A DNA stretch of 47,539 bases. Source: Phycisphaerales bacterium (lineage in GTDB: Bacteria > Planctomycetota > Phycisphaerae > Phycisphaerales > UBA1924). The notes beneath the pieces were generated by a model that saw nothing but the letters and a program-made list of their open reading frames with translations, did not search any database and was not told where the DNA came from. Numbering within the stretch: the stretch's first letter is position 1; each line of letters opens with the position of its first letter. Positions 13,245-18,647 of this stretch are shown here, one piece after another. Location: assembly GCA_026647565.1 (NCBI GenBank), contig JAPKGU010000009.1:1-47539 (forward strand), written 5' to 3'. Both the position numbers and the translations under genes were made by a program.

Positions 13245-13293
13245 CCGGAAGCCACAGTGTCGGGTGTCTCCCGACAGACTACGGAGTGCGAAC

Positions 13294-14349
<1,056 letters not shown>

Positions 14350-14363
14350 GCGATCAGGAACAG

Positions 14364-14425
14364 GCAGCCCGAGCGCGAGCGAGGGCGTGGCACAAGCATG
14401 CAGCCCGACCGTGAGGGAGGGCGTG
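14364..14425. repeat. Two degenerate copies of a 26-bp GCAGCCCGAGCG(C/T)GAGCGAGGGCGTG repeat
   Basis: Copy 1 at 14364-14389 GCAGCCCGAGCGCGAGCGAGGGCGTG; copy 2 at 14400-14425 GCAGCCCGACCGTGAGGGAGGGCGTG; 23/26 identical. Confidence 0.75.
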
Positions 14426-14485
14426 AGCGAAAAGAGAACGCATCGGCCGCAGAAGACCCACAGGGGCGCAAAGAAGGAGCGAATC

Positions 14486-15022
14486 ATGAACCGGACAATC
14501 ATCGCGCCCGCCATCATCGGGCTCGCCATCCTCGCCGGCGGCTGCCAGTCCGGCGCAAGCCCCGTCTTCGCCAAGTCCGAGCGCGTCAGCGCCTCGGCCA
14601 TCGCCGGCACGTGGGTCGGCACCGACGGACGTGAGTTCTCGATCCGCGAAACCCCCGGCGGCGGCCTCCGCATCAAGGCCACCGAGGGCGATGAGCACAC
14701 CGGCGTGCTCGTGGATATCGGCGGCAGATCCATCGTCGAGATCCCGATGAGCGATCCCGCCCGCATGTCCGACGACGCATCCCCCGTGTACCACTACGGG
14801 CTCATCAAGGTCAGCGGCGACACCATGGAGCACCAGTCGCTCAACCCCGCGTGGCTCACCAGCCAGCAGCAGCAGAGCAGCGCGATCGTCGCCGCCCCCC
14901 TCGCCAGCGGCGCCGGAACCGTAACGGCGACCGATCCCGAAACCATGCGCGGGCTGCTGAAGAAAGCCGTCGCGGATCCGAACGCGTGGGGGGCGAAGGA
15001 AATCCTGACTCGCAGGCCATAG
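14486..15022 (+). CDS. Hypothetical lipoprotein
   Basis: MNRTIIAPAIIGLAILAGGC lipobox; ~178 aa; consistent codon frame. Confidence 0.65.
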   Translation: MNRTIIAPAIIGLAILAGGCQSGASPVFAKSERVSASAIAGTWVGTDGREFSIRETPGGGLRIKATEGDEHTGVLVDIGGRSIVEIPMSDPARMSDDASPVYHYGLIKVSGDTMEHQSLNPAWLTSQQQQSSAIVAAPLASGAGTVTATDPETMRGLLKKAVADPNAWGAKEILTRRP

Positions 15023-15047
15023 TCCAGCATGGTGTGTGAGCGAGACA

Positions 15048-15611
15048 AAGAGAACGCAGAGGGCGCAGAGGAATCGGAGTGACGCAGAGGAGGCAGAGTG
15101 GAAAGGGATGGGTCAATCCCGAAGCAAGTATCTCGCGAATCGAGGGAATGTCCGCCAGAGTGGAACGCGCTCACTGGCTCGGTCATTGCCGCCGCGATGG
15201 AGGTCCACTCCGCTCTCGGTGCCGGATTGCTCGAGCGTTTGTACGAGCAGGCGTTGTGCCATGAGTTGGATCTGCGCAGGATCAGGTACTCGCGCCAGGT
15301 ACCGGTCCGCGTGAGTTACAAGGGTCTGGAACTTGGTGAGCAGGTCGTAGACATGGTTGTTGGAGATACTGTGGTCTTAGAGCTGAAGTCGGTCGAGCGA
15401 GTCCATGACGCGCATCTTGCCCAGATGCTCAGCTACATGCGATCGATGCGATTGCCTCTCGGATTGCTGATCAACTTCAACGTTGCGCGTTTGAAGGAGG
15501 GTATCTACAGGCGTGTCCTCGCCACGACGACACCTGTCCCGCCCGCCTTTCTTGACGAAGTGCCTTCAACTCCGCGTCCCTCTGATTTCTCCGCGCCCTC
15601 TGCGTTCTCTT
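15048..15611. mobile_element. Candidate GxxExxY cassette bounded by 43-bp terminal inverted repeats
   Basis: Left arm 15048-15090 AAGAGAACGCAGAGGGCGCAGAGGAATCGGAGTGACGCAGAGG; the reverse complement of right arm 15569-15611 is AAGAGAACGCAGAGGGCGCGGAGAAATCAGAGGGACGCGGAGT; 37/43 identical, outermost 19 nt perfect. Confidence 0.7.
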
Positions 15612-15613
15612 AA
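15098..15613 (+). CDS. GxxExxY family protein (PD-(D/E)XK-type nuclease fold)
   Basis: 'LTGSVIAAAMEVHSALGAGLLERLYEQALCHELDLRRI...YKGLELGEQVVDMVVGDTVVLELKSVERVHDAHLAQMLSYMRSMRLPLGLLINFNV'. GxxExxY motif GLLERLY, D...ELK and Q-x(3)-Y motifs. GTG start, or an alternative downstream start. Confidence 0.85.
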   Translation: MERDGSIPKQVSRESRECPPEWNALTGSVIAAAMEVHSALGAGLLERLYEQALCHELDLRRIRYSRQVPVRVSYKGLELGEQVVDMVVGDTVVLELKSVERVHDAHLAQMLSYMRSMRLPLGLLINFNVARLKEGIYRRVLATTTPVPPAFLDEVPSTPRPSDFSAPSAFS

Positions 15614-15618
15614 TTCTC

Positions 15619-16551
15619 ATGCTTAGAACTCAAACCATCTCCCGTCCCACCTCCATCGACGACCTGCTCGACGGCCGCCTCGCCGCGCGGATCGCGCAGC
15701 TCGACCTCGCCTCCAAGAAGATCTTCGCCGGCAAGATGAAGGGCGAGCGCCGCTCCAAGAAACGCGGCGAGTCCGTCGAGTTCGCCGACCACCGGCCATA
15801 TGTGTCCGGCGACGACCTCCGCCACATCGACTGGAACATCTTCGGGCGCCTCGACCGCCTCTTCCTGAAGCTCTTCCTTGAGGAGGAGGACCTCTCGCTC
15901 CACGTCGTGATCGATGCCTCGGCCTCCAGCGACTGCGGCGAGCCCAACAAGTTCATCTTCATGCAGAAGGCCGCGATGGCCCTCTCGTACTTGGGGCTTG
16001 TGAACTACAACCGTGTCGCCGCGACGGCGATCGGAGGCGGGGCGCGTGCCGAGGGCGGCATCTCGGGCTCCATCCGCGACCTGCGGGGCAAACGCCGCAC
16101 GCTGGAGATGGGCTCGTTCCTCTGCGGCCTGACCCCGGAGGGTTCGACGAGCTTCGGCGAGGCCGCGAAACGCATCTCCCTCACCCGCCGCGGCAGGGGC
16201 GTCATGGTCGTCCTCTCCGACTTCTTCATGAAAGAGGGATACGAGACCGGCCTTCGCCTCCTCGTCGGTCGTGGCTACGACGTCTTCGCCATCCAGGTCC
16301 TCAGCCCGCAGGAGGTCGATCCCACCATCGCCGGTGATCTTCGCCTGAAGGACGTCGAGGACGGCGACATGGCCGAGGTCACGATCTCCGCCCCGCTCAT
16401 CAAGAAGTACAAGCAGAATCTCGCGGCGTACTGCGACCAGTTCCGCCTCTTCTGCGCCCGGCGAGAGATCACCGCGATCACCGTGCAGAGCGACCTCTCC
16501 GTCGAGGCCCTGATCCTCGACTACCTCCAGACGAGGGGGCTGCTGCGATGA
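15619..16551 (+). CDS. DUF58 domain-containing protein
   Basis: 'GERRSKKRGESVEFADHRPYVSGDDLRHIDWNIFGRLDRLFLKLFLEEEDLSLHVVIDASASSD'. Confidence 0.92.
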   Translation: MLRTQTISRPTSIDDLLDGRLAARIAQLDLASKKIFAGKMKGERRSKKRGESVEFADHRPYVSGDDLRHIDWNIFGRLDRLFLKLFLEEEDLSLHVVIDASASSDCGEPNKFIFMQKAAMALSYLGLVNYNRVAATAIGGGARAEGGISGSIRDLRGKRRTLEMGSFLCGLTPEGSTSFGEAAKRISLTRRGRGVMVVLSDFFMKEGYETGLRLLVGRGYDVFAIQVLSPQEVDPTIAGDLRLKDVEDGDMAEVTISAPLIKKYKQNLAAYCDQFRLFCARREITAITVQSDLSVEALILDYLQTRGLLR

Positions 16552-18647
16552 CCTGGCTCACCCCATGGGTCGGCGCGATCGCCGCGGCTGTCGCGGTCCC
16601 CACCCTCCTCATCCTCTACTTCCTCAAGCTCCGGCGGCGTGACGTCGAGGTCTCCACCACGCTCCTCTGGAAGAAGGCGATCCAGGACCTCCAGGCCAAC
16701 GCCCCCTTCCAGCGCCTCCGTAAGAACCTGCTCCTTCTGCTCCAGCTTATCGTTCTCGGCGCGGCACTCTTCGCCCTCGCCCAGCCGCAGTTCAAGGGCA
16801 TGGCGACGACCGGCCAGCGTCACATCATCCTGATCGATCGCTCCGCGTCGATGCAGTCGCTGGATGAGACGGCCTCCGGTGGGCCGCGGGCCGTGCAGCG
16901 GCTCGATGCGGCGAAGCAGCAGGCGATCGAGCTGGTGGAGTCGCTGCGTGAGTCGAACGCGTTCCAGCGCGACAAGGCGGACGAGGCGATGGTCATCGCC
17001 TTCGATTCCACCGCCGAGGTCGTCGCCAACTTCACCTCCGACAAGGGCGCGCTCACCCGCGCGATCGAGGGGATCGAGGCCCGCGACTCGATCTCGTTCA
17101 TGGAAGAGGCGATGCGTCTTGCCCAGGCGCACGCCCCGCGCCGCGTCGTCGAGGGGCAGGCGATCGAGGGGCTTTCGCTCGCCGAGCCGGCAACGATCCA
17201 TCTCTGGACGGACGGGGCGATCGAGGACGCCGACCGAGTCCTTCCGACGATCGAGAAAGACGTGAAGTACCACGCCGTCGGGCTGGAGGGCGCGATCAAC
17301 CTCGGCATCACCAGCATCCGCGCCGAGCGCGACTTTGAGAATCCGAATCGGCTGAGCGTCTACGTGTCGATCTCGTCGACCGATCCATCGGCACGGACGC
17401 TCGACGTCGAGCTCGCGATCGACGGCGTTGTCGCCGGGGTGAAGTCCGTGACTGTTCCCGGCGTGGCCGTTCTGCCCGCGCCCGCGCCGACCGAGGACGG
17501 CGAGGCCGCGCCGCCACCCGAGCGATCGTCCGCATCGACCTCTGGCGTCGTGTTTGCGCTTAACCAGCCCGAGGGCGGCGTGATCACGACGCGCCTGCGA
17601 ACCGGCGGCGATGATGATCCTCGCGTCGACGCGCTCCGCGTCGACGACCGCGCATCCATCATCGTGCCTCCGGCCAAGCGCCTCGCCGTGGCGCTCGTGA
17701 CGCGGGGAAGTCTCTTCATCGAGGCCGCCCTTCAGGGACTTCCGCTGGCCCGGCTGGTCACGTACACGCCCGAGCAGTTCCAGACCGAGATGGACCAGGG
17801 TCGAGCCACGCAGTTCGACGTGGTGATTCTTGATTCCTGGCTCCCGCGCACGAGCGCCGGCGAGACTCTCCCGCCGGGTCGCTGGCTGGTCTTCAACGCG
17901 GTGCCGGGAGGCACGCTCGGACTCGCCGACGGGGGCGAGGGCGAGTCGGCGCTCTTCGTCGACTGGGCGCGAGACCATCCGGTCATGCGCGGGCTTGTTC
18001 TCGATAACGCCGTGATCGCCAGATCGAGGCGTGTCACGATCCCTGACGGCAACCCGATCGCCGTGCTCGCCATGACCTCCGTCGGCCCCGGCATCGCCGA
18101 GCTCATCACGCCCGAGGCCCGGGCGATCGTCGTTCCCTTCAACATCGCCGAGTCCACATGGCCCTTCGACGTCTCCTTTGTCGTCTTCACCGCGTCCGCA
18201 GTCACGTATCTCGGAGCCGACATCTCCGATCCGTCCGTGCGGCGCATGCTCCGGCCCGGCGGCATCCTCGCCGATCAGTTGCCCCCGGGAGCGACGGAGC
18301 CGGTGCTCGTGGAGCCGGATCAGCGCGAGACTTCGCTCGTGCTCGCTCCGGATCGACGCGTGACGTTCGGGCCAATCCGGCGCGTGGGGCTGTACCAGAT
18401 CCGCTGGTCCGGCGCTGGCACGGATCCGGGCGCGATCCGACCGCTCCGAACCTACTCCGCGAACCTGACCGATGCTTCGGAGAGCGACATCCGTGCGCAC
18501 CCGAGACTCGTGCTCGCCTCACGGACGGTCGCCGCGGAGAACGAGGGACGCGTCAAGGACCGCCGGCTCTGGCCGTGGCTCCTGCTTGTTGCTCTGCTCG
18601 TGCTGATGTTCGAGTGGTACGTCTACAACCGCAAGGTGTACTACTAG
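16548..18647 (+). CDS. BatA/VWA domain membrane protein
   Basis: N-terminal BatA-type double-TM region 'LLILYFLKLRRRDVEVSTTLLWKKAIQDLQANAPFQRLRKNLLLLLQLIVL'; VWA 'IILIDRSASMQ'; C-terminal TM; 4-bp overlap with the DUF58 gene. Confidence 0.88.
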   Translation: MTWLTPWVGAIAAAVAVPTLLILYFLKLRRRDVEVSTTLLWKKAIQDLQANAPFQRLRKNLLLLLQLIVLGAALFALAQPQFKGMATTGQRHIILIDRSASMQSLDETASGGPRAVQRLDAAKQQAIELVESLRESNAFQRDKADEAMVIAFDSTAEVVANFTSDKGALTRAIEGIEARDSISFMEEAMRLAQAHAPRRVVEGQAIEGLSLAEPATIHLWTDGAIEDADRVLPTIEKDVKYHAVGLEGAINLGITSIRAERDFENPNRLSVYVSISSTDPSARTLDVELAIDGVVAGVKSVTVPGVAVLPAPAPTEDGEAAPPPERSSASTSGVVFALNQPEGGVITTRLRTGGDDDPRVDALRVDDRASIIVPPAKRLAVALVTRGSLFIEAALQGLPLARLVTYTPEQFQTEMDQGRATQFDVVILDSWLPRTSAGETLPPGRWLVFNAVPGGTLGLADGGEGESALFVDWARDHPVMRGLVLDNAVIARSRRVTIPDGNPIAVLAMTSVGPGIAELITPEARAIVVPFNIAESTWPFDVSFVVFTASAVTYLGADISDPSVRRMLRPGGILADQLPPGATEPVLVEPDQRETSLVLAPDRRVTFGPIRRVGLYQIRWSGAGTDPGAIRPLRTYSANLTDASESDIRAHPRLVLASRTVAAENEGRVKDRRLWPWLLLVALLVLMFEWYVYNRKVYY

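Follow-up and report, generated by a model that had tools for sequence, protein, structure and literature searches.

What is a single GxxExxY gene doing between two inverted repeats? GxxExxY proteins form a very common family without known function, and tying one of them to its own repeats would supply a function. The gene considered here lies in the window, the whole 47,539-nucleotide stretch of Phycisphaerales DNA that was analyzed, which is contig 255 of a 3.94-Mb genome (265 contigs, 89% complete). This genome, G000, was compared with G001, G002, and G003, the four representing different species of one genus. The locus and its neighbors comprise the following features, where the ORF at 13264..14349 is presumably a MoxR-type ATPase gene, the family name being assigned by recognition of its sequence.

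13264..14349, + strand: MoxR-type ATPase gene, the upstream orthologous flank
14470..15022 (start approximate), + strand: small lipoprotein-like gene, the immediate left flank, aligned in G000-G003
15048..15090, + strand: left arm, an inverted repeat of CGCAGAG-type units with the outer end AAGAGAACGCAGAGG
15098..15613, + strand: GxxExxY gene, 171 aa, GTG start
15170-15514, within the GxxExxY gene: PD-(D/E)XK domain (D, ExK, and QxxxY motifs)
15569..15611, - strand: right arm, an inverted copy of the left arm that incidentally codes for the last ~14 codons
15619..16551, + strand: DUF58-type gene, the right flank, which served to locate occupied and empty orthologous sites

The packaging of the ORF between inverted arms, described in a first-pass annotation of this DNA, was borne out. 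The arms align over 42 nt (15048-15089 and 15570-15611) with 88% complementarity and 480 nt between them, and their outer 19 nt are identical. Arms were scored by aligning the 250 bp upstream of a gene with the reverse complement of the 250 bp downstream, a score of at least 18 counting as a pass. The window element scores 32; given that 18 or more was reached by only 3/635 shuffled flanks (0.5%) and 1/68 shifted windows, its arms are far above chance. The ORF starts 7 nt inside the left arm, and its TAA stop begins on the last base of the right arm, as had been annotated. The accompanying idea that protein and element termini are co-designed did not survive a wider survey: among 95 elements, the stop codon precedes the right arm in 68 and falls inside or just past it in 27, and the detail at this locus is incidental.

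Family membership of the window protein is clear, with 130.9 bits against TIGR04256 GxxExxY (cut-off 35) and 130.4 bits against PF13366 PDDEXK_3 (cut-off 22), two models that describe the protein only. Its nearest named relatives come from Planctomycetota/Phycisphaeraceae. Across 101 aligned relatives, residues G26, D68, and K80 never vary, while E29, Y32, E78, Q92, and Y96 are conserved in at least 90%. The AlphaFold2 model (pLDDT 96) most closely resembles the solved folds of the Cas4 protein SSO0001 (TM 0.60), lambda exonuclease (0.53), and MGME1 (0.44), with all fold matches in the PDB at E 0.0035 or worse and none at E < 0.001; I-Bth0305I also appears weakly, and the best viral model matches are small PD-(D/E)XK nucleases. 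A Pfam scan at E up to 1 returned PDDEXK_3, a weak Cas4 profile match, and nothing else, so that neither the Y1 HUH domain (PF01797) nor any other known transposase fold (DDE, HUH) was detected in the window protein. Sequence searches of the PDB and of PHROGs gave no match. Judged by its conserved D, ExK, and QxxxY residues and by the modeled fold, the protein is a PD-(D/E)XK superfamily member, in line with the earlier assignment, and a predicted nuclease. It shares the RecB-type fold with QxxxY seen in Cas4, lambda exonuclease, and MGME1. Unlike Cas4, the GxxExxY nuclease is about 120 aa, and the window ORF contains two Cys, short of the four-Cys iron-sulfur cluster.

Genes of this family are carried by 49/61 close-relative genomes and by 70/149 sampled genomes of the phylum (about half), which allowed the arms to be examined as a general feature. 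The main set comprised 72 GxxExxY genes scoring above 100 bits from the 61 related genomes; matching inverted arms flank 66 of them, compared with the control rates given above. With the threshold fixed beforehand, a replication on 28 genes from further genomes of the phylum yielded 24 passes versus 0/25 shifted and 0/140 shuffled windows; several of the failures score 16.5-17, with units still visible. In other phyla, 26/35 genes pass. Inverted repeats are thus enriched around GxxExxY genes relative to controls, whereas a lack of enrichment had been named in the first-pass annotation as a refutation, and its description of a compact unit bounded by inverted repeats stands. Each arm is built from 9-11-bp units in tandem, chiefly CACAGAG, CGCGGAG, CGCAGAG, CACGGAG, CGCAAAG, and CACAAAG (CRCRGAG-like), with a minority of units ending in GAT, and arms plus gene usually span 430-600 bp. 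A divergent, low-scoring GxxExxY set (L012, L163-L181; about 60-98 bits) is arm-less and, within the window's family, frequently present as a single copy in a genome. Only 1/20 of these genes passes the arm test, the exception (L168) being a truncated hit of the high-scoring kind. This set is perhaps a domesticated, vertically inherited branch.

Whether the arms belong to the gene can be asked within and between genomes. Where one genome holds several elements, an element's own arm pair matches better than every other arm of that genome in 55/59 cases. In comparisons between genera, the more identical the proteins, the more similar the arms (r=0.40, 0/500 Mantel permutations). In 42 comparisons versus 8 (p=4e-7), an element's arms are closer to the arms around the nearest protein from another genus than to those of its genome-mates, from which it follows that arms track the protein rather than the host. 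On the protein tree, GAT-type arms cluster, needing 4 changes versus 7.7 for shuffled labels (0/500), and GAT-type and GAG-type elements coexist in G032, G045, G053, G056, and G057. The number of GxxExxY genes per genome correlates with the number of arm patterns (Spearman 0.67, p=3.6e-9; 0.00 for a reversed control pattern). Gene and arms are therefore one unit, and repeats that predate the ORF and are independent of it, an outcome the earlier annotation had allowed for, were not what we found: the arms change together with the protein. Because a gene and arms inherited together as one unit would give the same pattern, the covariation speaks for a unit rather than for recognition, and direct recognition of the arms by the protein is something we infer.

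Comparison of fixed sites among the four species revealed turnover of this unit. At the moxR/DUF58 junction, where the DUF58 proteins are 94-98% identical to that of the window, the species hold three distinct GxxExxY proteins that share 50-62% identity; the accompanying arms are of the CGCAGAG, CGCGGAG, and CGCGAAG types, and G002 retains only AACGCG-TCCTCCGCGTT, a scar-like remnant. In G003, a fragment of a G000-type left arm persists outside the element's own arms. Simple vertical inheritance at this site is ruled out for G003, whose protein groups with that of G020 and outside the G000 and G001 clade. At the groL-dnaJ junction, the element is present in G000 and G003; G002 has a short intergenic region, and G001 has an unrelated ORF without arms. 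An element-free orthologous site, the existence of which the first-pass annotation had made a point of checking, is thus available, and both presence/absence and replacement are seen. A third site is occupied in all four species, with G003 and G001 proteins 63% identical, flanking DNA 81-89% identical, and the two arms of the element altered in the same way (ACCACGG to AACGCGG, among others).

The junctions themselves are less sharply defined. The target-site duplications that the first-pass annotation had expected from occupied and empty sites were not visible at the outer ends of 95 elements, at the G002 moxR remnant, or at the G002 groL-dnaJ site, where flanks of 80-93% identity may hide short ones. 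No precise empty/occupied junction was found at the compared sites. No genome was noticed to carry nearly identical copies of the gene at separate sites, and recent self-copying of the gene is accordingly not seen. The right flanks of L127 (G003) and L010 (G000) contain a second right arm, and in L127 a duplicated dnaJ start follows the first arm, which suggests duplication of arm plus flank.

Beyond gene-bearing elements, arms occur without the gene. The window arm type has 14 copies in its own genome with a sharp shared outer boundary: information content at the outer end AAGAGAACGC climbs from about 0.3 to 2 bits and drops after about 42-45 nt. Among the 61 genomes, this 38-nt arm flavor is restricted to the genus. 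One of the G000 copies is an arm pair with a 72-bp loop. At orthologous positions, G001 has arms around an unrelated 330-aa ORF, G003 has decayed arms, and G002 has none. The G001 locus (L229, G001:C1:890550-892750, ORF 602-1594) brackets with window-type arms an ORF unrelated to GxxExxY, and cargo exchange between arms is possible; G001 carries window-type arms without an obvious cognate gene. In G000, a dus-like gene contains a solo arm in frame, which the other three species lack. This gene (L210, G000:C244:36600-37650) has a hypervariable in-frame insert at about 340-560, made up of the solo arm in G000, of GGGCAATGGGCAATGG-type repeats in G001, and of almost nothing in G002. The richest genome, G045 (L182-L201), has 125 arm-pattern hits, many of them in ORF-less pairs 55-250 bp apart, and GAT-unit palindromes are nested in GAG-unit palindromes. 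Neighboring arm sites face inward in 16 cases and are arranged otherwise in 3. Derivation of the G045 pairs by deletion from one gene-bearing element was rejected, as their loops share only short pieces. Dispersed ORF-less copies, suggested as a possibility in the first-pass annotation, are thus observed, and their existence makes the second half of that suggestion, movement in trans, a reasonable one.

We consider it probable that a widespread minimal element exists (~430-600 bp: left arm, GxxExxY gene, right arm), of which the window locus is one copy, and that its repeats and RecB/Cas4-like nuclease make up a mobile system operating in the manner of RAYT/REPIN. Fixed sites show gain, loss, or replacement of the unit, and copies made of repeats alone occur dispersed, either as pairs with 55-250 bp between them or as solo arms. 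Mechanistically, the predicted nuclease would bind the tandem CRCRGAG-like units of its own arms and nick or cut at or near them; cutting would drive the copying of arm-bounded DNA to new sites, including existing arms. The copied DNA would rarely be the nuclease's own gene and more often ORF-less pairs, mobilized in trans. Candidate chemistries are a double-strand cut followed by repair and a hairpin or single-stranded DNA intermediate. Several observations count against the mobile-unit reading: G046 has arms without the gene, G001 has window-type arms lacking an obvious cognate gene, one arm pair holds other cargo, neither a target-site duplication nor a precise empty/occupied junction was found, and nearly identical gene copies within a genome were not noticed.

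In RAYT/REPIN systems, each repeat flavor has one distinct gene, and doublets, singlets, and nesting are described (Bertels and Rainey 2011, PMC3116915). The GxxExxY elements resemble these systems in that a single gene is flanked by its own repeat flavor, inverted doublets and singlets are dispersed, repeats are inserted into repeats, and several flavors occur per genome. As in REPIN populations, cognate inverted repeats flank the gene while dispersed inverted doublets of the same flavor are present. The enzymes are unrelated, a GxxExxY protein being of the PD-(D/E)XK type and a RAYT being a Y1 HUH enzyme. The repeats differ as well: REPs are single palindromes, whereas a GxxExxY arm is a tandem array of several 9-11-bp units, present as an inverted copy on the other side of the gene. 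Terminal inverted repeat (TIR) insertion sequences and MITEs offer a second parallel, with one gene between TIRs plus ORF-less TIR pairs; unlike insertion sequences, the GxxExxY element has neither a DDE/HUH transposase nor, as far as was found, a target-site duplication.

The main mechanistic rival is homing-like copying into existing arms. PD-(D/E)XK homing nucleases exist, and a GxxExxY protein could be an endonuclease that cuts gene-less, arm-like sequences, with repair copying the gene in; arm pairs would then be pre-existing palindromic repeats, serving as targets rather than ends. Repeated replacement at the moxR/DUF58 junction with residues of older arms, the grouping of most proteins at that site into one clade, the nesting of arms of different flavors, and the weak fold match to I-Bth0305I would all suit such a process. 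Resident targets, however, would not readily explain why arms differ between elements of one genome while the two arms of one element match, or why arms follow the protein across genera; because of these two patterns, we favor gene and arms traveling together over a gene entering resident arms. In addition, the element-free G001 and G002 groL-dnaJ sites lack arms of the element's type. As to whether insertion interrupts the nuclease's own recognition site, the compared loci show replacement at the mox junction and no clean uninserted site with arms. Overall, we regard homing as unlikely. A quite improbable alternative makes GxxExxY a passenger, merely carried between MITE or REP ends that another transposase, such as a RAYT or a DDE enzyme, moves. 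RAYT-type Y1_Tnp genes are indeed common in the same genomes, the unrelated ORF in one arm pair shows that other cargo occurs, and G046, a 99% complete genome, has 20 arm-pattern hits and no GxxExxY gene. The correlation of RAYT number with arms (0.51) nevertheless drops to 0.24 once GxxExxY is controlled, whereas that of GxxExxY with arms given RAYT is 0.54 (partial rank correlations), and RAYT was rejected as the mobilizer. These genomes also contain repeated copies of another palindrome, GGGAGCCCCGAGCGCAAGCTCGGGG, which is the more plausible REP. Nor would a passenger readily recur in many phyla inside such arms, the type of which tracks the protein.

The last rival dispenses with mobility altogether, treating arms and gene as a fixed regulatory or DNA-maintenance module, such as an mRNA hairpin, an invertible switch, or a nucleoid repeat. 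Many copies do lie a short way upstream of start codons, and the copies found at the mox site run in the same direction as the gene downstream of them. Against a fixed module stand the presence/absence and replacement seen among close species and the dispersed ORF-less copies with sharp ends, one of them inside the dus-like coding region of G000 only. No orientation switching was seen at the orthologous mox site, and Rfam gave no match within positions 14000-17000 of the window. A fixed host module is in our assessment very improbable.

Returning to the repeat-nuclease element as the preferred reading, a broader proposition is possible, and we advance it tentatively, at somewhat short of an even chance: prokaryotic mobile DNA may include a class founded by GxxExxY proteins, in which one RecB/Cas4-like PD-(D/E)XK nuclease of ~120 aa recognizes tandem-unit inverted arms and mobilizes its own gene and arm-only DNA, across many phyla and independently of DDE, HUH, serine, and tyrosine recombinases. 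The data suggest that a family of very small mobile DNA units, present in many bacterial phyla, has been overlooked. If true, this would explain a large class of CRCAGAG-type repeats across bacterial genomes and would add a type of nuclease that is not known to mobilize DNA on its own; proof of mobility by the GxxExxY nuclease alone would establish a new class of mobile system. With a 120-aa protein and 43 bp of DNA, the system is directly testable. Annotation would benefit as well, since arms are currently read as false C-termini or false ORFs. In the open literature searched, we found the GxxExxY name in two papers, in passing only, with neither a link to inverted repeats nor a description of the repeats, although the notes of family curators may mention them.

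Two further repeats deserve mention. The GC-rich palindrome GGGAGCCCCGAGCGCAAGCTCGGGG is separate from the arms and occurs in L234, L127, L010, and elsewhere in G000-G003; it coexists with RAYTs in genomes that carry GxxExxY elements and is probably the REP of the RAYT genes present there. In the BF2782 region of Bacteroides fragilis, the published primer AACTCTGTGTTCTCTGTGGTG, which lies close to an invertible promoter, corresponds to an arm of the kind described here (PMC3090145).
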